Virus record (IMG/VR): IMGVR_UViG_3300022204_000020
Coordinates: 1-20,279 of that record
Strand: one strand, 5' to 3'
Length of the DNA stretch: 20,279 nucleotides
Source of the DNA: a virus
Positions 8,536 to 19,819 of the stretch are shown here, one piece after another (position 1 is the first letter of the stretch; the number at the start of each line of letters is the position of its first letter). Made by a program: the position numbers and the translations under genes. The notes below the pieces were generated by a model. That model was not told the origin of the DNA, searched no databases, and was given only the letters and a program-made list of their open reading frames with translations.

Positions 8536-10659
8536 TTATGCTCCGGCGTTTTTGTTGATGCCAGCGTAATCGACCAGACCGGCGCCGAAATCGTGACGAA
8601 CCTTGACCACCAGAGAGTCGGAGGCAAATTCCACCTCGTCGTCGATAAAGGGCTGCTCATCGCCCATCAGGTAGGCAACCTCAATGGCGGCGGCCTGGTT
8701 TGGATGGGCCAACAGGTAGTAGGCGGTGATGGAATTATCGTCGAGCCGGGTGTCGGCAATGGGGGTTAACTTGCCCGCCCATGGGTTATGAACCCCGGCG
8801 GACTTGTTGTCATCCGGCAGAGCGGCGGAGCGGAGCAGGATCTCCGCATCGGTCTCCAGTTCGACCGGGTGCAGCAGGAAGGCGGGGGTCAGATCAAGGA
8901 CTGAACCATTCATACCTTTCTGTTTTCTCATAAGGGTGCGGCCTTTGGAAAGACCGGCCGAACCAAAAGCAGTGGCGGTTACGATGTTTTTGTGATCGGC
9001 GTGGAATAAGGTTTTGTTATCGCTCATGACCGGGTTGCTGGTGATCAGGCTATAAACCGCATCAGATTCAAAACGACGGGCAGCAAAACCAAACAGCTTG
9101 GGAATACGAGTGAAGGCCCGGAGGTCGTCATTGATGATCATGGTGCGAGTAAGCTTGACCTTACGGCCCTTGGTGACAACCCGGTATTTTTCCTGGGAGT
9201 CGGAGAACTTGGCGGTCTTGTATTCGCCGTTCTGGTCAAGATCGAGCAGATCCGGAGACTCGGAAAGCTTAATCCCGTACATATCCTTGAAATCGGGAGC
9301 ATCAACAATGGCAACAAAGGGTCGCCAAGTGGACGGGGCCTCGGCATATGCACCAAGAAGATGCCTGCCGGTGACAGCCCCCATGATGGCCGGGAAGTCA
9401 CTGGAACTGGCCGGGCTCAAGGCGCGGGCCGCAATGATTCTTTTGTCCATACCACGGGTACGGATACCGGCGTTCTCAAGGCTCTCGCGGGCCAGATCAA
9501 GTAAAGACATACCCCGGAAGATGTTAGACCCGTCGGCGGGCTTCTCGACCCGCAGGCCTCCGCGCAGGGCAAATCCGTCTATAGCGGCGGCGCGGAATTT
9601 TTCTACGGCCTCGGTGCCGATCTCGATGCTCATACCGATACCGGCGCCAACTGCCGGGCCGCGCTCTTTGAGCTTCTCGAAAATCTTCGCCCTGGCCTGA
9701 TCCAGGGACACACCCTGGTCAACCAGAGTTCTGGAAAATTCGGCGTCCAACCCGGCCACCGAGACCGCGTCGTTAATACCGTTGACCCGCTCGCGCTCGG
9801 TGCGCTGCGCCTCATCGATTTGGGCGCGAACCTGCTCCGGAGTCAAGCCGGTGGAACCGTCGCCGCGACCCTTATCGCCTGCAGCAGGAGCCGGGGCCGC
9901 TGCGCCCTGGGCGCCTCGGGTGTTTTTATCAGGGGCCTGATCGGCCCGATGGCCGCACGCGGTGCAGTGCCTGCCGTCGAAATCCTTTCCGCAATCTGGA
10001 CATTTGTGCATGGTGTTTCCTCCATTGTGTTGTTGACGGCCTTCATCGGCCCCCGGCCCACTCATCAGGGACCGTACTTTTGCTAAATTATCCGCGCCGA
10101 TGGGCACCAGCGAGAGTTCCCGCAGTTCCCAGCGCGTCGAGACCTTGACCGGCCCCTCGTATGATTTACCGTTGATGATTTGTTTCTCACCCTCGGGCAC
10201 CCAATAAGATTCAATGACCCGATACCCCACCGAAACATCGGTGATATGACCCTCGCGGACCTTGGTCGCAGCGTCCTGGCCTTCCTGGACGCTGGAAAAC
10301 TCAACCCGACAGTCTTTACCGGGAATGTCGTCCACCTCGCAGTCCTGGAAATCAGAGGCAGAGCCAAGAACATCGGACACCGAATAGCGGCTGTGGGTGT
10401 CGAGCAACCGCACATGATCACCGTCCGGCAAGATCATTCCATCGCTGACCAGGATCTCGTTGACAAAATCCCATCGTTCCCAATCGAACACCATTACCGG
10501 CCGCTCGACGGTGGCTACGAACCGGACGGATCGGGTTTTCTCGTCAAAGGTGGCCGGCTCGGCACGCATACCGGCGGCACGGGCCGAGAAGCCGTAGGCC
10601 AGGCCCCGGCGTTCCATTTCCTTCCTAATCTTCGCTTTCTGCTCAGGCGTTAACAGCAT
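8536..10659 (-). CDS. Prohead protease / major capsid protein fusion
   Basis: This 707-aa protein joins two proteins usually encoded apart. Residues about 35-195 resemble an HK97-family prohead protease, with His89 in LLDTHSR and Ser143 in TDVSVGYRV as likely catalytic residues. Residues 217-237 form a CxxC-x8-CxxC zinc ribbon (Cys220, 223, 232, 235). A Gly/Ala/Pro-rich linker and a charged helical stretch (about 265-330) follow and look like a scaffolding or delta region. From about 345 to the end it resembles Mu gpT-like major capsid proteins. Protease-capsid fusions of this kind are known. An in-frame ATG at codon 217 has an excellent ribosome binding site, so a separate capsid precursor may also be made. 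GGAGG precedes the main ATG; the start overlaps the portal end by 17 bases. Confidence 0.92.
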   Translation of the reverse strand: MLLTPEQKAKIRKEMERRGLAYGFSARAAGMRAEPATFDEKTRSVRFVATVERPVMVFDWERWDFVNEILVSDGMILPDGDHVRLLDTHSRYSVSDVLGSASDFQDCEVDDIPGKDCRVEFSSVQEGQDAATKVREGHITDVSVGYRVIESYWVPEGEKQIINGKSYEGPVKVSTRWELRELSLVPIGADNLAKVRSLMSGPGADEGRQQHNGGNTMHKCPDCGKDFDGRHCTACGHRADQAPDKNTRGAQGAAAPAPAAGDKGRGDGSTGLTPEQVRAQIDEAQRTERERVNGINDAVSVAGLDAEFSRTLVDQGVSLDQARAKIFEKLKERGPAVGAGIGMSIEIGTEAVEKFRAAAIDGFALRGGLRVEKPADGSNIFRGMSLLDLARESLENAGIRTRGMDKRIIAARALSPASSSDFPAIMGAVTGRHLLGAYAEAPSTWRPFVAIVDAPDFKDMYGIKLSESPDLLDLDQNGEYKTAKFSDSQEKYRVVTKGRKVKLTRTMIINDDLRAFTRIPKLFGFAARRFESDAVYSLITSNPVMSDNKTLFHADHKNIVTATAFGSAGLSKGRTLMRKQKGMNGSVLDLTPAFLLHPVELETDAEILLRSAALPDDNKSAGVHNPWAGKLTPIADTRLDDNSITAYYLLAHPNQAAAIEVAYLMGDEQPFIDDEVEFASDSLVVKVRHDFGAGLVDYAGINKNAGA
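10009..10023 (-). promoter_or_regulatory. Internal ribosome binding site and start inside the protease-capsid gene
   Basis: On the minus strand GGAGGA (10023-10018) stands six bases before ATG (10011-10009), which is in frame with the fusion gene at codon 217. The codons over this site read HNGGNTM, low-complexity residues with no obvious protein role. The product would be 491 residues: zinc ribbon, scaffold-like helix and capsid. Confidence 0.65.
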
Positions 10660-12232
10660 GCTTGTTTTCCTCCAGCTTCTTTTGGTTTTGAGCCCGCAGT
10701 TCGTAGAGTTTGCCGAGCTTCTCTTCCTCGCGGATCGCCTCGTCCAGGGTCTCGTTCCAGTCTTCGCCCTGGTTGGCGTTGATCTTGGTCCGGGTTGTGG
10801 TCACGTTGTTGATGCCCTGGTCGGCAGCCTTGGAGTCCTTGAGCGGATCGACCCATGTCCAGCCGGGGTTCTGCCAGGTGACCGCCTCGTGGTACGGCAG
10901 CGGGTCGAATGCATAGTTGCGCAGCTCCGGCAATTTTCCGTCCATCCACGCCGCCTCGATGAACCAGGCCCACAGCTTGTTGTTGAGTTTCTCGTTCAGG
11001 AAAAATTGCTGCCCACCGTAAGAGAGACGATTTTCCAGCGAGCCGTCCCGCCCCGATGAATAAGACGAATTAGACCGGTCGTTTGAAAACGACTCGTAAC
11101 TGATCCCGGCCCCGGCGGACATCCCCCGCACACCGTCGCGGATGTACGGCTCGTACTGAGTGCCTGGCCGGTTATGCTCGGCAACCTTAATATCAGCGCC
11201 GAACGGCAATTTCTGAATCCGGCCCGGATCGATATAGTCGGGCAGATCGCCCCAACCCACACCGGTGTCAACAGGCTTAGCCTGGTTGCCGCCGGGGATG
11301 CCGATCCCCGCGCCGGGCAGATCCGGGTAGGACGACTTGACGAACACCCCGAAGGCCGCGGCCAACTTGGCCCCAACCCGCTCGATCCCCTTGTATTCGG
11401 AGATGTCGTAAGCCTCCATGATAATGGCGGCCAGCCAGGAGATTCCGCGAGTCTGTGAGGCTCGGCGACGGTCGAACACATAGATCATGTCTGCCGCGGG
11501 TATAGGGTTTGACTTACCGCTTACCCCCATGAACAGATAATCGCCGGGGTGGCTCTCAAGAACATGGTAGGCAACTGCCTTGCCGGTTTCCGGGTCAACC
11601 TCAATGCCTCGGCGACCGATATTGCCGTTTGAGAGCGGGCCGTCAATACGAGCGTCGAGCAGGTCGCACTCGATCACCTCAAGGCGCAGCGGCACAATCC
11701 CCTTGAGCGAGGTGTCCCACACCCGATGGATCAGGACTTCGCCGTCAATCCAGATATGGCGGAGGATCAACCGTTGCAGGGCGGCAACGGAGTCATGGCC
11801 GGTGATATCGGCGTAGCGCGCCCAGCGGGACCACAGCTTTTCGACCTTGTTGTTGAGGTTGGTGTCCAGCTCGTCGGGACCTTTCTTGAAACAGGCCTGG
11901 GGCCGGATGCCTTTGCGGACCACGTTATTGCAAATCTTGTCGATGGCGCCGGAAATGTAGCCGTTGTTCTGGACCTGGTCCCGCGCCCGGGCGGTGAGCC
12001 ATTTCGCGGCCCGCTTGATCTCGGCGTCGGCCGATTTGTTGCGGGGTCGCCAGTTCTTGTTGGGGCCGGAGATTTCGCCGGCAACGTAGGTGCGCAAGAC
12101 CTCGCGGCCGTGGCAGTAGAAAGCGGCACGGGCCGGGCTGAACAGGCCGATGGTCCCACCCACCAGAGCGGTGACCGCATCGTATGCCCGGCGGCGAAAG
12201 CCTGCCGGTGATGTCTCGACCCGATCCGCCAT
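10643..12232 (-). CDS. Portal protein (lambda B-like)
   Basis: This 529-aa protein is a lambda-type portal (Phage_portal_2). The N-terminal region carries RTYVAGEISGPNKNWRPRN and a NNGYISGAIDKICNNVVRKG helix. The wing and stem region has IDGEVLIHRVW and GIEVDPETGKAVAYHVL, and later comes AGISYESFSNDRSNSSYSSG, a conserved portal loop. Twelve copies would form the DNA channel at the capsid vertex and dock the terminase. The ATG overlaps the stop of the preceding gene (TAATG). Length is normal for the family. Confidence 0.95.
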   Translation of the reverse strand: MADRVETSPAGFRRRAYDAVTALVGGTIGLFSPARAAFYCHGREVLRTYVAGEISGPNKNWRPRNKSADAEIKRAAKWLTARARDQVQNNGYISGAIDKICNNVVRKGIRPQACFKKGPDELDTNLNNKVEKLWSRWARYADITGHDSVAALQRLILRHIWIDGEVLIHRVWDTSLKGIVPLRLEVIECDLLDARIDGPLSNGNIGRRGIEVDPETGKAVAYHVLESHPGDYLFMGVSGKSNPIPAADMIYVFDRRRASQTRGISWLAAIIMEAYDISEYKGIERVGAKLAAAFGVFVKSSYPDLPGAGIGIPGGNQAKPVDTGVGWGDLPDYIDPGRIQKLPFGADIKVAEHNRPGTQYEPYIRDGVRGMSAGAGISYESFSNDRSNSSYSSGRDGSLENRLSYGGQQFFLNEKLNNKLWAWFIEAAWMDGKLPELRNYAFDPLPYHEAVTWQNPGWTWVDPLKDSKAADQGINNVTTTRTKINANQGEDWNETLDEAIREEEKLGKLYELRAQNQKKLEENKHAVNA

Positions 12233-12456
12233 TAACGACGCCCCCCAAACACGGTAACTGAGTGGCCGAACAGCCCGCCGTTTTGCGTGGCGGCGATTCG
12301 TGCCTCAAGATTGTTGATCTCGCTGCGGATTTCGGGAAGGGATGCGCGAGTCAGCCGCCGCTTGCCGACCTGGTACTCCTGGGAGTGTTCCAGGATGGCT
12401 TTTTCAGCGGCCTTATAAAGAGCCAGACGTTCTTGCAATTCGGTGAGTGTTGACAT
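12232..12456 (-). CDS. DUF6148-like small head-joining protein
   Basis: This 74-aa protein starts at the ATG at 12456, preceded by CGAGGG; an upstream in-frame ATG at 12507 lacks a good site. It is helical, with LQERLALYKAAEKAIL, then YQVGKRRLTRASLPEIRSEI and a second helix. The pattern of an aggregate helix, an 'xYxxGxRxLTRAxLxEIR' turn and a second helix is that of DUF6148/gpW-like small proteins encoded next to portals. It probably acts in head completion. It is the first gene after the control region at 12457-12740 and should lead the head transcript. Confidence 0.78.
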   Translation of the reverse strand: MSTLTELQERLALYKAAEKAILEHSQEYQVGKRRLTRASLPEIRSEINNLEARIAATQNGGLFGHSVTVFGGRR

Positions 12457-12526
12457 TGAGCCCTCGTTGATTTTGCTTGATGAGGGCCAGTGTAGGGGAG
12501 TGGGCAAAAGAAAAAAAGTGGGTCTG

Positions 12527-12591
12527 TACCACGGGTGGTACTTTACTACCCGTGGTAATATACTACAGGTGGTATAATACTACTGGTAGTA
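12527..12591. repeat. Four 14-bp palindromic repeats at exact 17-bp pitch (operator-like array)
   Basis: Four copies begin at 12527, 12544, 12561 and 12578: TACCACGGGTGGTA, TACTACCCGTGGTA, TACTACAGGTGGTA and TACTACTGGTAGTA. The consensus is TACYAC-NN-GTRGTA, a near-perfect inverted repeat. Spacers are CTT, ATA and TAA. A constant 17-bp pitch points to cooperative binding of a dimeric protein. The array lies between the intI terminator and the first head gene, where a promoter is expected. I see no convincing -35/-10 pair overlapping it on the minus strand, and I do not recognise the operator. Confidence 0.8.
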
Positions 12592-12680
12592 TCAAGTTTG
12601 GTGATGGTGGCACAAGATGTGCTATTTATAAAGATAGGCTATGGCCAACAGGGGGAAAGGGCGGTCAGGGCGACCGGGCA

Positions 12681-12740: not shown

Positions 12741-13727
12741 CTATATTGCGATGGCCAATGGTCGATTATCAAGGGGGCTCCCGACCTTGGCCGGGGTGAT
12801 CAGGTGCAGATAGACCATGGTGGTCTCAATTTTCTTGTGGCCAAGAAGACGTTGCAGCCGGGGAAGAACAATATCCTGCGCCCCCTCGGCATCCTCAAGC
12901 CAATGAGTTGCAAAGGTATGGCGCAGGGTATGCGGGCTTACTCGTTTAACCAGCCCGGCCCGCCGAGCGGCGTTGCGGACTTGCTTTTGTAGGGTGGATT
13001 CGTGCAGGTGGTAGCGCTTACGACTCCCACCATCCGGGTCAACGCTTAGTTGACTTGCCGGGAATAACCATTGCCAACGCAACTCCAAAGGGGCGGAAGG
13101 ATACTTCCTGGATAATGCGCCCGGAAGACTCACAGCACCATAACCGGCGGCTAGATCCCGAGAGTGTATCCGCCCGACCAGCTCGACTTGCCTCGACAAA
13201 TGAGACGCCAACATCTGCGGTAAAGGTAAAATGCGATCCTTATCACCCTTACCGGCCCGGACGGTGATGGTCATCCGAGCAAGATCAATATCACCAACCC
13301 GCAATCTTAAGCACTCCATAAGCCGAAGGCCGCAGCCATACAACAGAGCAGCCAACACCCACCAGTCACCACGCAACTGATCAAGCACCGCCCACACCTC
13401 GGACCGACTCAACACTGACGGCAACCGAGGCTGACGCTTGCAGTGTAAAAAAGAAATGTCCCCGAGGTCTATCCGCAAAACCTGCTTATAAAGAAAAACA
13501 ATGGCGCAGAGGGCCTGCTTTTGCGTAGAGGCGGCAACCCGCTGGTTACTGACCAAATGAGTGAGGAACCGGCCAACCTCTTCGGCCCCCATATCTTTTG
13601 GATGGCGTTTGTCGTGGAAAAAGATAAACTGGCGAATCCAATAAATATAGGCATCGATAGTGCGGCGACTCTTCCGCTGCAACCGCGCCAAATCCCTGAC
13701 CTGATCAAGTAATTTCGGTTTCTGCAT
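12741..13727 (-). CDS. intI: Integron integrase (IntI-type tyrosine recombinase)
   Basis: This 328-aa protein carries the tyrosine recombinase residues Arg135 (GCGLRLME), Lys160/163 (GKGDKD), His266 and Arg269 (PHTLRH), His297 (LLGHKKIETT) and Tyr306 (MVYLHL). Two traits separate it from ordinary phage integrases. It has the IntI-specific extra segment between the catalytic patches (residues about 204-245, ALSRKYP...WQWLFPAS...RKRYHLHESTLQK), and it has the C-terminal GSPLD motif. IntI proteins recombine attI with attC sites of gene cassettes, acting on folded single-stranded attC. An attI-like junction lies 47 bases upstream and three attC-like sites follow. An AGGAAG site precedes the ATG. 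All catalytic residues are present, so it looks functional. Confidence 0.93.
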   Translation of the reverse strand: MQKPKLLDQVRDLARLQRKSRRTIDAYIYWIRQFIFFHDKRHPKDMGAEEVGRFLTHLVSNQRVAASTQKQALCAIVFLYKQVLRIDLGDISFLHCKRQPRLPSVLSRSEVWAVLDQLRGDWWVLAALLYGCGLRLMECLRLRVGDIDLARMTITVRAGKGDKDRILPLPQMLASHLSRQVELVGRIHSRDLAAGYGAVSLPGALSRKYPSAPLELRWQWLFPASQLSVDPDGGSRKRYHLHESTLQKQVRNAARRAGLVKRVSPHTLRHTFATHWLEDAEGAQDIVLPRLQRLLGHKKIETTMVYLHLITPAKVGSPLDNRPLAIAI

Positions 13728-13742
13728 AGTCGCTTCCTTTTG

Positions 13743-13780
13743 GTTATGCGGACATTTGTCCGTTTAGTTGGATGTTCAAT
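13743..13780 (+). other. attI-like integration site with a palindrome
   Basis: GTTCAAT at 13774-13780 forms the insertion point facing the first cassette. Beside it is GTTGGAT (13768-13774 region), which fits the GTTRRRY core. A perfect palindrome CGGACA-TT-TGTCCG lies at 13749-13762, 22 bases before the intI start, where a repressor could control intI. The exact attI limits cannot be set by eye. Confidence 0.6.
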
Positions 13781-14012
13781 TGCGCGAACGGCCTAGCACA
13801 TGATCTCTAATTTGCAGGCACTGTTGGCAGTCAACACGCTTAGTTGTAGGCTCTGCCTCTCCCCAGCTCTCGCCCATACAATTATCATCTCCAATATTAT
13901 CTTGCCCACATAACATACAGGAATCAGATGGGCCGTCATAATGTACCGTTGATGAAATTGTTTCACCACCATCTTGGTGCCTTTCAATAACCCTAAGCAG
14001 TAACCGCTTCAT
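13776..14012 (-). CDS. Cassette 1 gene: small cysteine-rich protein, unknown function
   Basis: This 78-aa protein starts at the ATG at 14012, seven bases after GGAGG (14024-14020). The open frame continues upstream to 14192, but that part lies over attC1 and lacks a binding site, so the shorter form is preferred. It reads MKRLLLRVIERHQDGGETIS and then has Cys pairs SCMLCGQ and DCQQCLQIRDHVLGR, suggesting zinc binding. The stop TGA falls inside the attI-proximal junction heptamer, so the gene fills its cassette back to front. No named family is recognised. Confidence 0.7.
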   Translation of the reverse strand: MKRLLLRVIERHQDGGETISSTVHYDGPSDSCMLCGQDNIGDDNCMGESWGEAEPTTKRVDCQQCLQIRDHVLGRSRN

Positions 14013-14036
14013 ACCTGAGCCTCCGGGGCGCGCAAA

Positions 14037-14157
14037 ATTGAACCAGTCAATCAAGAGTGACAAAAAGAGCCGCTGGTTATCGGTCAAGTTGTCTTGGTGT
14101 TTACGGTGGGCAATTAAAGCACGTTGCTCTTTTTGCCCCTTATTTCGGGCGTTATGG
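14037..14157 (+). repeat. attC site 1
   Basis: About 121 bp. The left simple site is ATTGAAC-CAG-TCAATCAAG, very like the left end of the aadA1 attC (AAC-AAT-TCATTCAAG). The right simple site GCCCCTTATTTCGGGC followed by GTTATGG fits the published right-hand consensus nearly base for base, except in the last bases. The inner arms pair as AATCAAG against AATAAG with one extra C on the left arm, the usual extrahelical base that sets attC polarity. Confidence 0.75.
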
Positions 14158-14388
14158 TAAAGGGGGTAATATCTCGGAAGCATAGCTAACAATACCGTCT
14201 ATACTGCAACTCCTAATAGACGCTCCGCACCAAGAGCAGTATTCTGAGGTATGTATAACAACCCTCCCCCAATTATCCTCATATCTACCTATTTCCCCAC
14301 CAATAAAATCATGGGCGCATCTTTGCCATAGTAACCCATTAACCAAAACATCTATTTTGAGCAGTAGCTTGTTTAAAAAATTTACCAT
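14152..14388 (-). CDS. Cassette 2 gene: small putative zinc-binding protein, unknown
   Basis: This 78-aa protein starts at the ATG at 14388, inside the first heptamer of attC2, with GGAG about nine bases before it in the attC arm. It begins MVNFLNKLLLKIDVLVNG, and then has RCAHDFIGG and EYCSWCGASIRSC, giving a possible C..H..CxxC metal site. Its TAA uses the first bases of the cassette junction at 14152. Base composition is clearly more AT-rich than the phage genes around. I do not recognise the family; the alternative is a chance open frame, though the cysteine layout argues against that. Confidence 0.55.
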   Translation of the reverse strand: MVNFLNKLLLKIDVLVNGLLWQRCAHDFIGGEIGRYEDNWGRVVIHTSEYCSWCGASIRSCSIDGIVSYASEILPPLP

Positions 14389-14470
14389 AACCCGTCACTC
14401 CAGTCGGACTGGAATTATCTGCGGGTAACCTGGCCCAGTTCGTGGCCAGCCGCTGAGTTTAACATTCGGC
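14385..14470 (+). repeat. attC site 2 (degenerate crossover core)
   Basis: About 86 bp. The left site is CCATAAC-CCG-TCACTCCAG-TCGGAC; the right site is CCGCTGAGTTTAAC-ATTCGGC. The arms ACTC(C)AG(T)CGG and ACTCAGCGG pair with an extra C on the left arm. The loop contains a second hairpin (CTGGCC/GGCCAG). The right core reads ATT instead of the conserved GTT. Confidence 0.75.
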
Positions 14471-14712
14471 TACTCAATACCCTCATCGAAAATCTTGTTT
14501 TCAAAATATACTTCTACCCAGCCAGCTATCAATTCTTGGCTTTTCAAGCAAAGTTCTTCGTCATCGTTAAGCTCAGTGCTTCTAATCATTTCGATAAGAT
14601 CAGTTTTTAATTCTCTCAACCACGTAGCCGAACCAGGCACTTCAGCGGAACCCGCCCCTGTGTCGCCCCTGTGATTGTTCATTGGGTTTCCCATACTTGC
14701 AGTTTGTACCAT
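14470..14712 (-). CDS. Cassette 3 gene: small acidic protein, unknown function
   Basis: This 80-aa frame starts at the ATG at 14712, eight bases after AGGAGG (14726-14721); both lie within the loop of attC3. The first 30 residues (Gly/Ala/Asn-rich) are read from the attC itself. The protein-like part follows: LRELKTDLIEMIRSTEL, DDEELCLKSQELIAGWVEVYF and a terminal FDEGIE. A TTG at 14619 would give just this helical part. The TAG abuts the cassette junction. No family recognised; probably a small soluble helical protein. Confidence 0.58.
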   Translation of the reverse strand: MVQTASMGNPMNNHRGDTGAGSAEVPGSATWLRELKTDLIEMIRSTELNDDEELCLKSQELIAGWVEVYFENKIFDEGIE

Positions 14713-14758
14713 TGTTCGTGCCTCCTATTGGCGGTTCGCGCTGAGTTTAACGTTGGAC
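14627..14758 (+). repeat. attC site 3
   Basis: About 132 bp. The left site is GCCGAAC-CAG-GCACTTCAGCGG; the right site is GCGCTGAGTTTAAC-GTTGGAC, with an intact GTTRRRY core. The arms ACT(T)CAGCG and ACTCAGCG pair with one extra T on the left, and GAACCCGCC against GGCGGTTC extends the stem. The loop carries the ribosome binding site and start of the cassette 3 gene. Confidence 0.75.
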
Positions 14759-14917
14759 AACTTTTGCCAGCTTGTTCAGGTCGTCAGTTTCCACCTGGAG
14801 AGTAATGCAGCCATCCGTAGGGCCGGAAAACTTTGAAAACTCATACCCCTCGTTGTCCAATGTTTTCTTAAATATGGGGAGCTTCCAGTCGTCTAAAACT
14901 ATTGCCGCCTTTTTCAT
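14747..14917 (-). CDS. 56-aa orphan protein
   Basis: The small gene starts at ATG 14917 with AAAGGA nine to ten bases upstream, 17 bases after the preceding stop. It encodes MKKAAIVLDDWKLPIFKKTL, then EGYEFSKFSGPTDGCITLQVE and TDDLNKLAKVVQR. The beta-helix-beta-beta-helix impression suggests a compact domain, and I recall similar short orphans from phages and mobile elements, but I cannot name a family. The TAA lies just inside the right arm of attC3, so its end is at the cassette junction like the three cassette genes. It may belong to a fourth cassette whose attC has been lost. Confidence 0.68.
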   Translation of the reverse strand: MKKAAIVLDDWKLPIFKKTLDNEGYEFSKFSGPTDGCITLQVETDDLNKLAKVVQR

Positions 14918-14934: not shown

Positions 14935-15567
14935 TTAATTTTTGACATGAAGGCGCAAGCCAATAAAAACAACATTCCCGCCCCTTTTTATGGACACATA
15001 GCCAAGACTTTTAAGCCTGCTGGAAAACGAGCGAGGAGAAAGCGCTGAAAAACCGTTCCCGTCACAATATTCAACAAAAGCATCGTAAAGGTCTTTCACA
15101 GGCACTGCAAAATCAGCAACCTTTTCGCAGACGGTAGCGACAAAATCTTCAACCACACAAACAGCACCATCGGTAAACTGGTCTGTCGGTAAAAGTCCAG
15201 CCGCCAGCAGCACGTCTTCTGCCTGTTTTTCTTTGGCCGGGTCAATAAACCTTACTGCCGCGATCTTCCATTTGCCCTCATTCTGACGAGCATCAACACT
15301 AAAACCGTTTGCGGATAAATGCTTAATCATATCGTCCGCGCTTTCAAAACTGTAACCCGCTTCAATTAGTACCTTTTGCATGGCTTCTCCTTTATGTTCT
15401 CGCTTTCCCGTAACCTCACTCAAAAAACAACCAGAGCCGTCCTCAAACTCGACACCAAGGCCACCGTCTTTCTCATATAAAACCACCACCCCAACACCGT
15501 AGGGTGTTTCAACAATATCTCCATCCTCAAGAGACCTATAATCAAATGACATGGTCGGGTTACTCAC
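14935..15567 (-). CDS. Protein with SH3-like N-terminus and D5-type winged-helix-like C-terminus
   Basis: This 210-aa protein has two visible parts. Residues 1-58 (DGDIVETPYGVGVVVLYEKD, then GVEFEDGSGCFL) look like a small SH3/Tudor-like barrel. Residues about 157-207 (VPVKDLYDAFVEYCDGNGF, then SPRSFSSRLKSLGYV and a final IGLRL strand) resemble the Pox_D5 winged-helix found at the end of phage and plasmid primase-helicases. No helicase domain is present. The GTG at 15567 overlaps the previous stop (GTGA). AAGGAG six bases before an in-frame ATG at 15381 (codon 63) could start a 148-aa form lacking the barrel. Function is unknown; DNA binding is plausible. Confidence 0.7.
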   Translation of the reverse strand: MSNPTMSFDYRSLEDGDIVETPYGVGVVVLYEKDGGLGVEFEDGSGCFLSEVTGKREHKGEAMQKVLIEAGYSFESADDMIKHLSANGFSVDARQNEGKWKIAAVRFIDPAKEKQAEDVLLAAGLLPTDQFTDGAVCVVEDFVATVCEKVADFAVPVKDLYDAFVEYCDGNGFSALSPRSFSSRLKSLGYVSIKRGGNVVFIGLRLHVKN

Positions 15568-15827
15568 CGGCCAACCTCCACCGGATCAACCTCTATCGAC
15601 TTAATCGTCACCTTCATCGCGCAGAGATAACAGGCGACGTTTATGCAATGGTGATATCTGGTCCTGGTCGAGCCTTCCCATGGCTTGGTGGAATAAATCT
15701 TCGCCTTTTCCCGGCAGGCCGGGCACAATGCCCCGTGCCGGGCCGAGTAGTCCACGCCGTTTTCAGCCTCTTGCTTTTTCAGCACAATCAATGCCGTTGC
15801 CTGTGTCAATTTATCTCTCCTCTTCAT
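15564..15827 (-). CDS. Ogr/Delta-like zinc-finger protein (late transcription activator candidate)
   Basis: This 87-aa protein contains Cys35-Pro-Ala-Cys38, RYHHC61 and INVAC66. This is the CPxC...RYHxCxNxxC pattern of the Ogr/Delta family, which activates late promoters in P2-like phages by contacting RNA polymerase and DNA. A helical basic N-terminus (MKRRDKLTQATALIVLKK) extends beyond the usual Ogr start, and a third CxxC-like residue (Cys69) follows. The gene lies inside the late operon, joined to the terminase by an ATGA overlap, whereas P2 ogr lies outside. It could instead be a structural zinc protein. Confidence 0.75.
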   Translation of the reverse strand: MKRRDKLTQATALIVLKKQEAENGVDYSARHGALCPACREKAKIYSTKPWEGSTRTRYHHCINVACYLCAMKVTIKSIEVDPVEVGR

Positions 15828-17836
15828 CCGCCGAAAATGCTCTGTCCACCCGTGAACGGGTTGTCGCCCTGGTTGTCATTGCCGGTTTTCTTTGCCTCGC
15901 TCTTGGGGGGTGGCGGGGTGGAGCCGGGCCGCTCCATGGTCTTGATCCCCAGTTCATAGGCCGCCACCAACGCCATATATTCACAGTCCCAGTAGTGGTT
16001 CGGCTTAGAGTTGGGACATTGCCACAACCCTTTCGTGTCGCGGTACTCGGCGCACATGTGCGAGGCATATTCGTCCGAGGTTTCTTTGTGTAGATGAAAC
16101 GCCCCTGGGTCGGTGGGGTTGATGTTGAGCCGCCGGGCCAGATCGTTTTTAAAAAGGGTCGAGTCTCCGTTCAGCAGGTTGACCCCGCCGGGGATCGGCT
16201 TGTTGGTGCCGGGGTAGGTGGTTATCTTCGACCATGATGTCGGACTGGTTTTACGCTGCTGACCACGATAGGCGATCAAGCGGCCCGGCCAGAGGGATGA
16301 GAAGTCATACACCTCGCTGGTCCGGTGACCCTGGGTATCCTGCACCGCGATGTGTACGGGATAGACGATCCCGTTCTCGTCGCGGTATTCGTGCTGGAAT
16401 AAAATCTTTGCCAACCCCTCAAAGGTGAGGGCCTCGCCGTTCTTGACCAGCCACGACTCGTGATCCATCCCCCACCCGAAGGCACGGATCACATAATAGA
16501 ATCCGTTGTCCTGGGTATCCACCCCGGCGACCAGGGCGGCCACCTTGCCGCCACCCGGCACCAGACCGGCGGGGCGATCATCCCGCAGAGCAAGGATCGC
16601 GTCCTCGAGGCGGAGGGTGCCAAAATCCTTGAAAGGTTCTGCCTTGTACTGGGTGAAAAAAATCTGCATGGCTTTTTTATCTTTACGCCCTTTGAGCCAT
16701 TGGGCGGCGATCTTCCACAACTGGATCAGCGGCGAGATCCACGCCGGAGAGTGGAAGCAAATCTTTTCCGGGTTTTCCTGTTCGAGGTAATCGCGCAGCC
16801 GGCGGCCTGCATTCTCCAGCGCCCCCCACTCGGTATGTTCCCGAGCCCGCCACCCGGTGTGCATGGCGGCAATCACCGCCTGATCGCGTTTTTGATCATC
16901 CCAAATAGAGCCGCAACCTTCCCGGGCGCAGACGTACCCGGCCTGTTTGTATAACTCCATCACCTTGGGGTCGGTCAACTCCTTGTCGAACGAGTGCATG
17001 ATCTGGTCGAAGTTCATCAACTGCTCACCACCGCAGTCCGGGCAACAGACCCAGTAATCAAAAACGACCTGGGCCTCTTTTGTCATGTACTGGGTGATAT
17101 GTCCTTCTTCATCGGTGGGGGTGGATGACCAAAAAATCTTATGCGCCATAGGATAGGCGTTGCACCGCTGCCGGAGGTAGTCCCGCAATGCGCCTTCCTT
17201 CTTCCCGGCGGATTCGTCCATCTTGTTCACTTCGTCCACCAACAAATACATAGCCGAAACGTTAGATATAGAGGTGGTGGAGCCAGCCCAGCCCATATAG
17301 ATGAGCATAGTCAACAGCTTGATCCGCAGTCCGGCCATATCGTCATCGATGCCGGTGAGGAGTTTTTTGAGCCGGGGCGATCGCTCGAACATCGGCTGCA
17401 GGTAATCGTTGCAGCGCTTTTTGGCGGTCTCTTTGTCCGGGTACACGATCAGCGCCGGGCCGGGGCGCATGTCAGAGGCAAAACCGAGCAGGGTTTCCAT
17501 GCCCGCAGAGCTGGCCCCCTGGGGCGACTTGACGTTGCCGATCTCACGGACAGACGGATATAACGCCGCGTCCATGATCCCGACCATGTGCGGCATGAAG
17601 TCGTTATCCCACTTCGCGCCCTCAAGAGGCCCATAGGTGACGGTGCGGTGTTTGGGCGCCCAGGTAGACGGCGGCACCATCTTGTGACGGCGGAGGATGC
17701 GGCGTTCGCCTTTGGTGGGCCGGAACTTGATGCGGATGCGCTCGGGCCGGTGGCGGTATTTCTCGGCCAACCACTCCGGGCTGACGCGCAGCCGGACAAC
17801 CGGGTTGATGATGTCGACCTGTTGCGCGAAACCCAT
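15824..17836 (-). CDS. Terminase large subunit (GpA family)
   Basis: This 670-aa protein is a GpA-type packaging motor. The N-terminal ATPase region has a KSPQGASSAGMET segment (about residues 103-115) at the place of the Walker A-like loop and MYLLVDEVNKMD (196-207) as Walker B with Asp201-Glu202. A cysteine-rich insert (CCPDCGG, then CAREGCG) is typical of the family. The C-terminal nuclease part begins near VAGVDTQDNGFYYVIRAFGWG and ends with a Pro-rich tail. It cuts concatemers and pumps DNA into the prohead. The ATG overlaps the small subunit stop (TGATG). Confidence 0.95.
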   Translation of the reverse strand: MGFAQQVDIINPVVRLRVSPEWLAEKYRHRPERIRIKFRPTKGERRILRRHKMVPPSTWAPKHRTVTYGPLEGAKWDNDFMPHMVGIMDAALYPSVREIGNVKSPQGASSAGMETLLGFASDMRPGPALIVYPDKETAKKRCNDYLQPMFERSPRLKKLLTGIDDDMAGLRIKLLTMLIYMGWAGSTTSISNVSAMYLLVDEVNKMDESAGKKEGALRDYLRQRCNAYPMAHKIFWSSTPTDEEGHITQYMTKEAQVVFDYWVCCPDCGGEQLMNFDQIMHSFDKELTDPKVMELYKQAGYVCAREGCGSIWDDQKRDQAVIAAMHTGWRAREHTEWGALENAGRRLRDYLEQENPEKICFHSPAWISPLIQLWKIAAQWLKGRKDKKAMQIFFTQYKAEPFKDFGTLRLEDAILALRDDRPAGLVPGGGKVAALVAGVDTQDNGFYYVIRAFGWGMDHESWLVKNGEALTFEGLAKILFQHEYRDENGIVYPVHIAVQDTQGHRTSEVYDFSSLWPGRLIAYRGQQRKTSPTSWSKITTYPGTNKPIPGGVNLLNGDSTLFKNDLARRLNINPTDPGAFHLHKETSDEYASHMCAEYRDTKGLWQCPNSKPNHYWDCEYMALVAAYELGIKTMERPGSTPPPPKSEAKKTGNDNQGDNPFTGGQSIFGG

Positions 17837-18591
17837 CAGGCGTCGGCCTCCAGAATGATGTCGAATTCGATGTCGGCGGCAAAGACGCTCATCCGCTGGG
17901 CGATCTCCTCAAGCATGGCCTCCAGCAGGGCCGGGGCCTTGGTCTGATCACCGTTGACCAGGGCGATCCAGGTCTTGACGTTCTTCTGCGCCATGTGCGA
18001 GAGCTGCGCCATTGCCGCAACCTGCCGACCGACGATGGCGTTTTCGTGCTCCTCGATGGGCATAACCTTACCCTGCTTGACTCGCTGTTTATGGCGGAGT
18101 TCTTCGAGCTTGAGCTGTTCTTTTTCCAGCTCGATCTCTTTCAATTCATCCTGTATTTTATCCAGCCGGTCGCGCTCCTTCTCGCCGGTCTCGGCGGACT
18201 TGGTGTGCAGCTTGGCGTATTTTTTGACAGCGGCCTGGGTGAAGACCTTACTCCCGCGCTTCTTACGGAGCAGCCCTTCCGCGCAGTGGTCATAAAACTG
18301 GGTTTCGCTGATCTGCCGATTGTTATCGAGCAGCCAGCGATAGACCGCGGCCTTTGATTTGAATTCGGGTTGCGGACGAGCGGACGACTTTTTCTTTGAT
18401 TGTCCCAATATTTCTGCCTCCTTCTCAGCCAAAGCCGCGCTCGCGGTGTCCCAATTTTTTTTATTTATGGCGGTCGGGTTCCCGTTATAGCTCTTTATTG
18501 TTGACACCACCGCATTGTAGAGGATCACATATTCAGACCGTAGGCGCTTAGGAGCGGCATCAAGGACCTTTTTATCAAGCGGGTCAATCAT
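17836..18591 (-). CDS. Terminase small subunit-like protein (Nu1-type layout)
   Basis: The protein is 251 aa from the ATG at 18591, which overlaps the end of the methyltransferase by eight bases and has GAGGAA about ten bases before it; a longer frame to 18732 lies over the methyltransferase. Residues about 90-130 (KSKAAVYRWLLDNNRQIS, then QFYDHCAEGLL) look like a winged helix-turn-helix that reads cos or pac DNA. A long charged coiled coil (about 148-190) follows, and a C-terminal helical part with AQKNVKTWIALVNGD. This is the layout of Nu1-type small terminases. Its place directly before the large subunit supports the call. Confidence 0.82.
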   Translation of the reverse strand: MIDPLDKKVLDAAPKRLRSEYVILYNAVVSTIKSYNGNPTAINKKNWDTASAALAEKEAEILGQSKKKSSARPQPEFKSKAAVYRWLLDNNRQISETQFYDHCAEGLLRKKRGSKVFTQAAVKKYAKLHTKSAETGEKERDRLDKIQDELKEIELEKEQLKLEELRHKQRVKQGKVMPIEEHENAIVGRQVAAMAQLSHMAQKNVKTWIALVNGDQTKAPALLEAMLEEIAQRMSVFAADIEFDIILEADA

Positions 18592-19819
18592 GGATGCTGA
18601 TTTCCTCGAATGGTTGGCCGGTTGACTCGAGAACCGCCTTCTTGCCTGTAAAATTTTGCCAGCGGCATATAGTAACGTCGACATAAAGCGGGTCGATTTC
18701 CATTCCAAAATATTGACGGCCGAGCTGCTCACAAGCGATCAACGTTGTTCCCGACCCGTTGAACATATCGGCCACTCGCTTGGCAAAAGGCACGTTGGCC
18801 AACAGCGTTTCGATAATTTCAACAGGTTTTTCCGTGGTGTGGTTTTTGTTCCCGGTGCGTTTTTCTCGCAAAACATTACCAACGCCGGAAGCGTGCTTGT
18901 CGAATGGCGCTGTTTGTTTGCAACCCCACAACACCAATTCATGCTGGGCTCGCCAACCGCGACCCATTCCGGGGGAACACTTATCCCACACAATCATCGA
19001 CCGGGCGCCAAACCCGGAGGATTCCGCCACGTCGTAAAGGTAAATCCACATCCGCCAGTCGGTGAAGGCATAAAGGTATTTGGCCCCGAAATTAGAAAAC
19101 GCAGATTTAAGCAACGCCATATAGCCACGGGTTGACAAGGTGTCATTAGCAATCATCTTGTGTGCGGCGCTGGTGCCGACTGACCCAGGGGACTTGCCGC
19201 TTTCTTGGAAACCTCCTGAGCAATAAGGAGGATCGGTGCAAATCAGATCCACCGTGCCACCATCAAGTAATATTTTGACATTGTCAGCCACCGTGCCATC
19301 TCCGCACATCACTCGATGATCACCACACAACCACACATCGCCGGGGCGAGTAATAGGGGCAACAGGTGGCGGTGGGACATCATCCGGGTCCGTGTATCTT
19401 TGCAAGATTCCTCCATCGGCCAGCATGGAAGATATTTCTCCAGCGGCAAAACCGATTAAAGAAAGGTCGAAATCCAATTCCTGCAGGTCATTCAATTCCA
19501 AACAAAGAAGGTTTTTATCCCAACCAGCAAGCTCGGCAAGTTTGTTGTCTGCAAGGATATACGCCCGCTTTTGAGTGGCAGTTAGTCCAGCAAGTTCAAT
19601 AACTGGCGCCTCTTCCATGCCTAACGATTTGGCCGCCATTAAACGGCCTTGGCCAGCGATGACCCCGTTCTTGCCATCAACCAGAACTGGGTTTGTCCAT
19701 CCAAATTCCTTGAGACTGGCCGCCAACTGGCGGATTTGTTCTTCGGAATGAGTTCTGGCGTTCTTCCTGTAGGGAATCAAACTATCAATTTTTTTCAGCT
19801 CAACTTGCATCTTGCTCAT
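18584..19819 (-). CDS. ParB-like domain fused to DNA adenine/cytosine methyltransferase
   Basis: This 411-aa protein has an N-terminal ParB/sulfiredoxin-like domain (residues 1-110: LIPYRKNARTHSEEQI, VIAGQGRLMAAKSLG, ILADNKLAEL). A methyltransferase domain follows, with CTDPPYC (Asp196-Tyr199) as the catalytic motif and DMFNGSGTTLIACEQLG (from about 351) as the S-adenosylmethionine site. DPPY before FxGxGT is the beta-class order. No restriction enzyme is adjacent, so it is an orphan enzyme; such phage fusions probably protect DNA or mark packaging sites. The start overlaps the preceding stop (ATGA). Confidence 0.93.
   Translation of the reverse strand: MSKMQVELKKIDSLIPYRKNARTHSEEQIRQLAASLKEFGWTNPVLVDGKNGVIAGQGRLMAAKSLGMEEAPVIELAGLTATQKRAYILADNKLAELAGWDKNLLCLELNDLQELDFDLSLIGFAAGEISSMLADGGILQRYTDPDDVPPPPVAPITRPGDVWLCGDHRVMCGDGTVADNVKILLDGGTVDLICTDPPYCSGGFQESGKSPGSVGTSAAHKMIANDTLSTRGYMALLKSAFSNFGAKYLYAFTDWRMWIYLYDVAESSGFGARSMIVWDKCSPGMGRGWRAQHELVLWGCKQTAPFDKHASGVGNVLREKRTGNKNHTTEKPVEIIETLLANVPFAKRVADMFNGSGTTLIACEQLGRQYFGMEIDPLYVDVTICRWQNFTGKKAVLESTGQPFEEISIHD

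Follow-up and report, generated by a model that had tools for sequence, protein, structure and literature searches.

Phage flanks and the integron integrase

The window, which is an entire IMG/VR record (20,279 bases), carries phage late genes that all lie on the minus strand in the order terS, GpA-type terL, Ogr/Delta-like zinc-finger ORF, an insert, gpW-like adaptor, lambda-type portal, and head and tail genes. The right flank contains the terminase large subunit gene terL (15824..17836; PF05876/PF20454) and the left flank the gpW-like head-tail adaptor (12232..12507; PHROG 118, E 5e-19) and the portal gene (10643..12232; TIGR01539, 285 bits). The terL, portal and tail genes are thus co-directional around the insert, as expected for a Caudoviricetes late operon and in agreement with the packaging genes on the right and head genes on the left of the original prediction. 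The borders of the insert are conserved in relatives: on one side the adaptor gene, on the other the zinc-finger ORF (15564..15827, minus strand), which gave weak Pfam and PHROG matches and is 40-60% identical in most relatives holding the interval. Over the cassette array and the adjoining ORF the GC content drops to 44-48%, from about 58%. An Rfam scan of the window gave no useful match, and promoter and terminator scans gave no more hits than in shuffled sequences.

Several other features were noted in the flanks. Just upstream of the gpW-like gene, at 12500-12600, operator-like palindromes (GTACCAC-GG-GTGGTAC, with variants TACTACC..GGTAGTA) form a cluster that precedes a T-rich run, and similar repeats occupy the same place in contigs L101 and L100. 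A 210-aa ORF with a primase C-terminal/Pox_D5-like winged-helix domain is located at 14935-15567, between the array and the zinc-finger ORF, and has a 32% identical relative upstream of terS in L095. Upstream of terS, positions 18584-19819 encode a ParB-N plus DNA methyltransferase-like protein, the N-terminal part of which has a relative between the zinc-finger ORF and gpW of L097.

The insert contains an integron integrase gene, intI, at 12741..13727 on the minus strand, co-directional with the late operon. Its 328-aa product matched the IntI family model TIGR02249 with 371.4 bits (cut-off 265) and scored far under the cut-offs of the XerC and XerD models. The best PDB match was VchIntIA (2A3V, 264 bits), to which the IntI-specific stretch GALSRKYPSAPLELRWQWLFP could be aligned. 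The catalytic residues R135, K160, H266, R269, H297 and Y306 are invariant across 71 IntI sequences. In a tree the protein falls inside IntI, with full support as the sister of the IntI of L196, another phage; the two are 62% identical. A 5-aa insert (GAQDIVLPRLQ) precedes the second catalytic histidine, and among the 71 non-redundant phage IntIs from the best 80 of 486 relatives it is shared only by L196. The earlier assignment as an IntI with complete catalytic residues and the family-specific insert therefore holds, and family model and tree both place the protein with the IntIs and not with Xer or ordinary phage integrases.

The attI-like region and attC sites

An attI-like region (13728..13773, plus strand) is located between the intI start and the first cassette. 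It ends in the core GTTGGAT (13767-13773), which follows the motif GTTRRRY, and its stretch GGTTATNCGG..GTC.GT.TA-TT.GATGTT resembles a stretch upstream of the L196 intI gene. These sequence features make 13728..13773 a candidate attI site, with GTTGGAT as its core.

For the detection of attC sites we used a covariance model, R1, constructed from 36 attC sites of chromosomal arrays only, with no phage sequence. Their source was a set of 80 bacterial genome loci surrounding IntI relatives, with arrays of known gene direction. The structure of R1 had a covariation score of 0.398, versus 0.155 in shuffles, and its matches were strongly one-stranded, a single strand being chosen for nearly every site. 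In two isolated phage genomes (98 kb) R1 found three sites only, which form the attC cluster at the start of the TJE1 genome. Polaribacter phage P12002L gave no R1 match and is hence uninformative on direction.

With filters off, the three best R1 matches in the whole window were attC1 (14037..14157; R'' ATTGAAC, R' GTTATGG; model match 14041-14153, 11.6 bits, E 0.46, rank 2), attC2 (14385..14470; R'' CCATAAC, R' ATTCGGC; 11.5 bits, E 0.48, rank 3) and attC3 (14627..14758; R'' GCCGAAC, R' GTTGGAC; 30.6 bits, E 2e-5); the next best match elsewhere scored 9.2 bits. The three attC-like sites recognized earlier by eye thus did produce covariance-model matches and are the highest-scoring ones of the window. 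All have plus polarity, pointing away from intI. Only attC3 is significant on its own, and it was also the top site of the window according to a separate pattern detector; its bottom-strand DNA was not predicted to fold better than shuffles (z −0.5). The sites attC1 and attC2 are weak when taken alone, but their rank, strand, spacing and mirrored core sites support them as real sites. Core sites mirror the opening of their own cassette at 5/7 positions for attC1, 7/7 for attC2 (GTTATGG) and 6/7 for attC3; of the predicted counts of 7/7, 7/7 and 6/7 the second and third were confirmed and the first was not. Both attC1 and attC2 may be decayed, given their low individual scores (E about 0.5) and, in attC2, an A in place of G at the crossover base. 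With intI, an attI-like site and three attC sites between terL and the portal gene, the locus does look like a complete integron.

Cassette genes

Each cassette contains one gene on the minus strand, reversed with respect to its attC site. The cassette 1 gene (13776..14012) encodes 78 amino acids with two CxxC pairs, is preceded by a GGAGG ribosome site and stops 2 nt from the attI core; its frame is open to 14192. The cassette 2 gene (14152..14388; 78 aa, Cys-rich) has its start codon in R'' of attC2 and its stop codon within the GTTATGG core. The gene of cassette 3 (14470..14712; 80 aa, AGGAGG ribosome site) starts within attC3 and shares 1 nt of its stop codon with the ATTCGGC core. Just past the last attC a fourth minus-strand ORF of 56 aa (14747..14917) has its stop codon at the attC3 core; an attC site of its own was not found. 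All four ORFs thus stop at or a few bases from core sites. Three of the four starts have a clear ribosome-binding site and the remaining one is located in the attC2 core. The attC thus lies at the 5' end of each gene, whereas canonical cassettes have attC at the 3' end and a gene that follows its polarity. This gene direction, the unusual part of the locus, was missing from the original prediction.

When the window ORFs were compared with the fetched loci, only the 56-aa ORF was found elsewhere, with tblastn identities of 55% to L133:8763-8927 and 36% to L117:1884-2048. A search with one window cassette against phages and with the array DNA against plasmids gave no relatives. The relatives of the 56-aa ORF are in the terS-terL interval of L133 and L117, as for a travelling late-operon gene.

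Gene direction relative to attC polarity

An IntI alignment used as the query against IMG/VR retrieved 486 relatives, the best 80 of which were kept; all 71 non-redundant viral IntIs among these matched TIGR02249. R1 gave 157 matches in viral loci and 94 in chromosomal loci. For the direction counts we used only cassettes with a gene clearly on one strand, according to a strand-symmetric gene score. In arrays upstream of intI, 54 genes of the chromosomal loci followed attC polarity and 3 opposed it, whereas in the viral contigs, many of which are fragments and some possibly mislabelled bacterial DNA, 7 genes were with polarity and 68 against. Fisher's test for this contrast gave 2e-25, although related loci are non-independent and p-values are only a guide. 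The contrast also holds at loci where a terminase or portal gene adjoins intI (1 with polarity, 16 against). Reversed cassettes do occur in chromosomal arrays, for example in L035 and L021. The count omits the isolate contig L161, whose IntI is of the Xanthomonas type and whose array is canonical; its inclusion would contribute roughly ten more canonical cassettes. With an earlier rough detector and L161 included the contrast was weaker (30 with, 48 against).

A coding check with Pfam agreed with the assigned directions: about 20 of 108 ORFs against polarity had a match, an estimate since families overlap, versus 1 of 89 ORFs with polarity. The matches include PAPS reductase, N6/N4 and C5 DNA methylases, Dam and Mom, so the content of viral-locus cassettes appears to fit DNA modification. 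The stops of reversed genes lie a median of 4.5 nt from the next core.

Not all viral arrays have the reversed arrangement. Mixed directions occur in five viral contigs, and mainly canonical arrays in L156 and L161, both of which have an IntI of the Xanthomonas chromosomal type. In arrays downstream of intI, genes follow attC polarity in both sets (chromosomal 11/0, viral 8/0). We noted intI upstream of a canonical array as a second design in L153, L173, L178, L179, L185 and L013, which include the GenBank virus Rctr41k.

Relatives of the phage and settings of intI

When the window IntI or TerL was used as a single query against viral contigs, only distant relatives emerged, so that alignments were required. 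Portal relatives show that a cargo site separates the zinc-finger ORF from gpW: this interval measures 69-356 bp and is empty in L103, L100, L095, L117 and L125, whereas other portal relatives have different genes there, over a length of about 1 to 6 kb. On the 5.7-kb contig L130, which includes no intI, this interval holds reversed cassettes, one of them encoding a methyltransferase. Two attC sites are present there in L094, with genes on the attC strand.

The closest relatives by portal sequence, L100 (64%) and L101 (63%), both have an IntI just upstream of terL. In L101, terS is followed by three cassettes and then by intI and terL, the last two of which overlap; attC sites and genes of this contig occupy opposite strands, and one gene resembles a C5 DNA methyltransferase. 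The cassette methyltransferase of L101 is encoded at 2159-2812. A late-operon context of IntI was also found in L133, L131, L135 and others. About twenty viral IntIs among the best 80 of 486 have a terminase or portal gene directly downstream; others adjoin an integrase, primase or methyltransferase gene. The terminase-portal interval, for which a comparison between relatives had been suggested, can thus be empty or hold other cargo, or the IntI can be placed beside terL. A second setting was observed in L165, L181, L192, L202 and L207, where a reversed-cassette array is combined with another recombinase or integrase gene directly downstream of intI.

In a quick tree, with SH-aLRT as the only support values, phage IntIs formed several groups among chromosomal ones. 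Because gene direction requires four changes on this tree, for the rows with known layout, the reversal probably arose, or was exchanged, more than once.

Cassette movement

Near-identical relatives differ by cassettes gained or lost at core sites. The loci L168 and L169 are 99.9% identical over intI and the following sequence, yet one additional cassette, bounded exactly by two attC sites, is present in L168. The cassettes beside attI are also different, the shared attI sequence starting right after the core AAC|. Likewise, L145 is without two cassettes of L147, with the junction at the core. These differences have the pattern expected from IntI-driven gain and loss. The window itself, for which a close relative is lacking, showed no such change. 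The earlier suggestion that phages move cassettes is thus supported by these relatives, and transfer to chromosomal arrays would be a further step that we infer. In L130 (2825-4128) a 99-aa cassette gene is present in two copies with 90% nucleotide identity that flank the methyltransferase cassette, likely the result of a cassette duplication.

Comparison with known systems

The phage carriage of integrons inferred in the original prediction is not novel, since it was published in 2023. In Qi et al. 2023 (PMC9892861), integrons and attC clusters are described on phage genomes, the attC sites of virulent phages are functional with IntI1, and the complete phage integrons were captured from chromosomes or are of class 1; as passive cargo, integron pieces of ordinary chromosomal type are described for Vibrio anguillarum phage p16 and for Shewanella phage M16-3. 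The parts covered here mention no late-operon intI and no reversed cassettes. The window resembles these phages in having integron parts on a phage genome, and differs in that the captured arrays L011 and L012 have canonical cassettes, with genes and attC on the same strand. TJE1 is also canonical in this sense and has no annotated integrase. Full-text literature searches gave, at the title and abstract level and with subscription journals and preprints outside their scope, no report of phage late-operon integrons or reversed cassettes. What is new is therefore that the cassette genes are directed against attC polarity, in the same direction as intI and the late operon.

With the sedentary chromosomal integrons of Vibrio, Xanthomonas and Shewanella the window shares the IntI family, an attI-like site beside intI, the attC structure and the polarity away from intI. 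In these integrons, however, genes are with polarity (54 of 57 clear calls) and the surroundings are a host chromosome instead of a phage operon. Inverse-intI integrons, as in Treponema and Acidobacteria and in the chromosomal and viral arrays on the right of intI, have intI and cassette genes co-directional as in the window. Their intI is upstream of attI and the genes follow polarity, whereas the window has intI downstream of the array and genes that oppose polarity; the position of intI rules out a Treponema-type inverse integron. Phage moron sites likewise have variable genes between conserved ones, here terL, the zinc-finger ORF, gpW and portal, but the cargo of the window brings its own recombinase and recombination sites.

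Origin of the integron

The recurrence in viral contigs of an IntI-family integrase with attC sites pointing away from it, genes against this polarity and phage flanks makes it very likely that the window contains an integron belonging to the phage, composed of intI, a putative attI and a three-cassette array at the terL-portal cargo site and on the late-operon strand.

An ordinary chromosomal integron piece, picked up by a phage or prophage as passive cargo, would also account for an IntI of the normal family and for the lower GC content of the array, and such captures exist (PMC9892861). We consider it improbable, as captured arrays L011 and L012 are canonical while the window is reversed like many phages with IntI beside terL, a late-operon IntI is also present in L100 and L101, the nearest relatives by portal, and the nearest IntI, that of L196, is in another phage.

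The reversal itself would disappear if attC polarity were misassigned and the locus were a canonical integron with normal genes and intI at the far end. Core sites are symmetrical, and the other polarity gives the textbook order of gene, stop and attC as well as three R' boxes starting with GTT. This is very improbable because the covariance model picks one strand for nearly every site, and the extra base in L'' is present only on the assigned strand. The assigned polarity also points away from intI and attI, as attI x attC recombination needs, with the same geometry in chromosomal and phage arrays, and the attI boundary AAC| beside intI in L168 and L169 fits it.

Slightly less probable still is that IntI is the phage's own integrase for integration into host attC arrays, with the phage attC sites as attP-like leftovers. 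Phage p16 excises at attC sites (PMC9892861), and at some viral loci IntI lies beside another integrase. In the window, however, IntI is among late packaging and head genes rather than lysogeny genes, a tyrosine integrase distinct from IntI is encoded in L196, and core-site cassette differences in near-identical phages indicate cassette traffic and not phage integration. No prophage of this family with an integration site other than attC was located in this analysis. An assembly chimera of an integron and a phage contig, conceivable for a metagenome-derived 20-kb record with a GC shift, can practically be dismissed since the same design occurs in independent contigs of other samples, with intI overlapping or abutting terL.

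Proposed function of the phage integron

For an integron that belongs to the phage, by analogy with known integrons IntI would capture cassettes at attI by recombination with folded single-stranded attC sites. As intI shares the strand of the late genes, the polarity of attI and attC runs in the upstream direction, opposite to late transcription, and a normally oriented cassette in this setting would therefore be read backwards. With attC at the 5' end of the gene and the stop at the next core, late transcription would read the cassettes forward, old cassettes first and the newest last, followed by intI. The reversed genes thus apparently let phage late transcription read captured genes. The cassette pool may be maintained by selection on the lytic phage, and the DNA-modification cassettes of relatives could serve against restriction; the window cassettes, too, would be expressed and beneficial.

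More broadly, we think it likely that phages own a distinct form of integron, with several IntI lineages and a separate cassette pool of genes against attC polarity. Capture would occur at the promoter-distal end of the late operon, and the pools would be kept apart because phage cassettes in a bacterial integron are read backwards. If true, phages run their own gene-capture systems and are not just carriers of bacterial ones. The rule that attC follows the gene and the gene follows polarity would be broken in a way that fits late-operon expression, and phages would have a concrete supply route for DNA-modification genes. The separation of phage and bacterial cassette pools by gene direction would then become testable.
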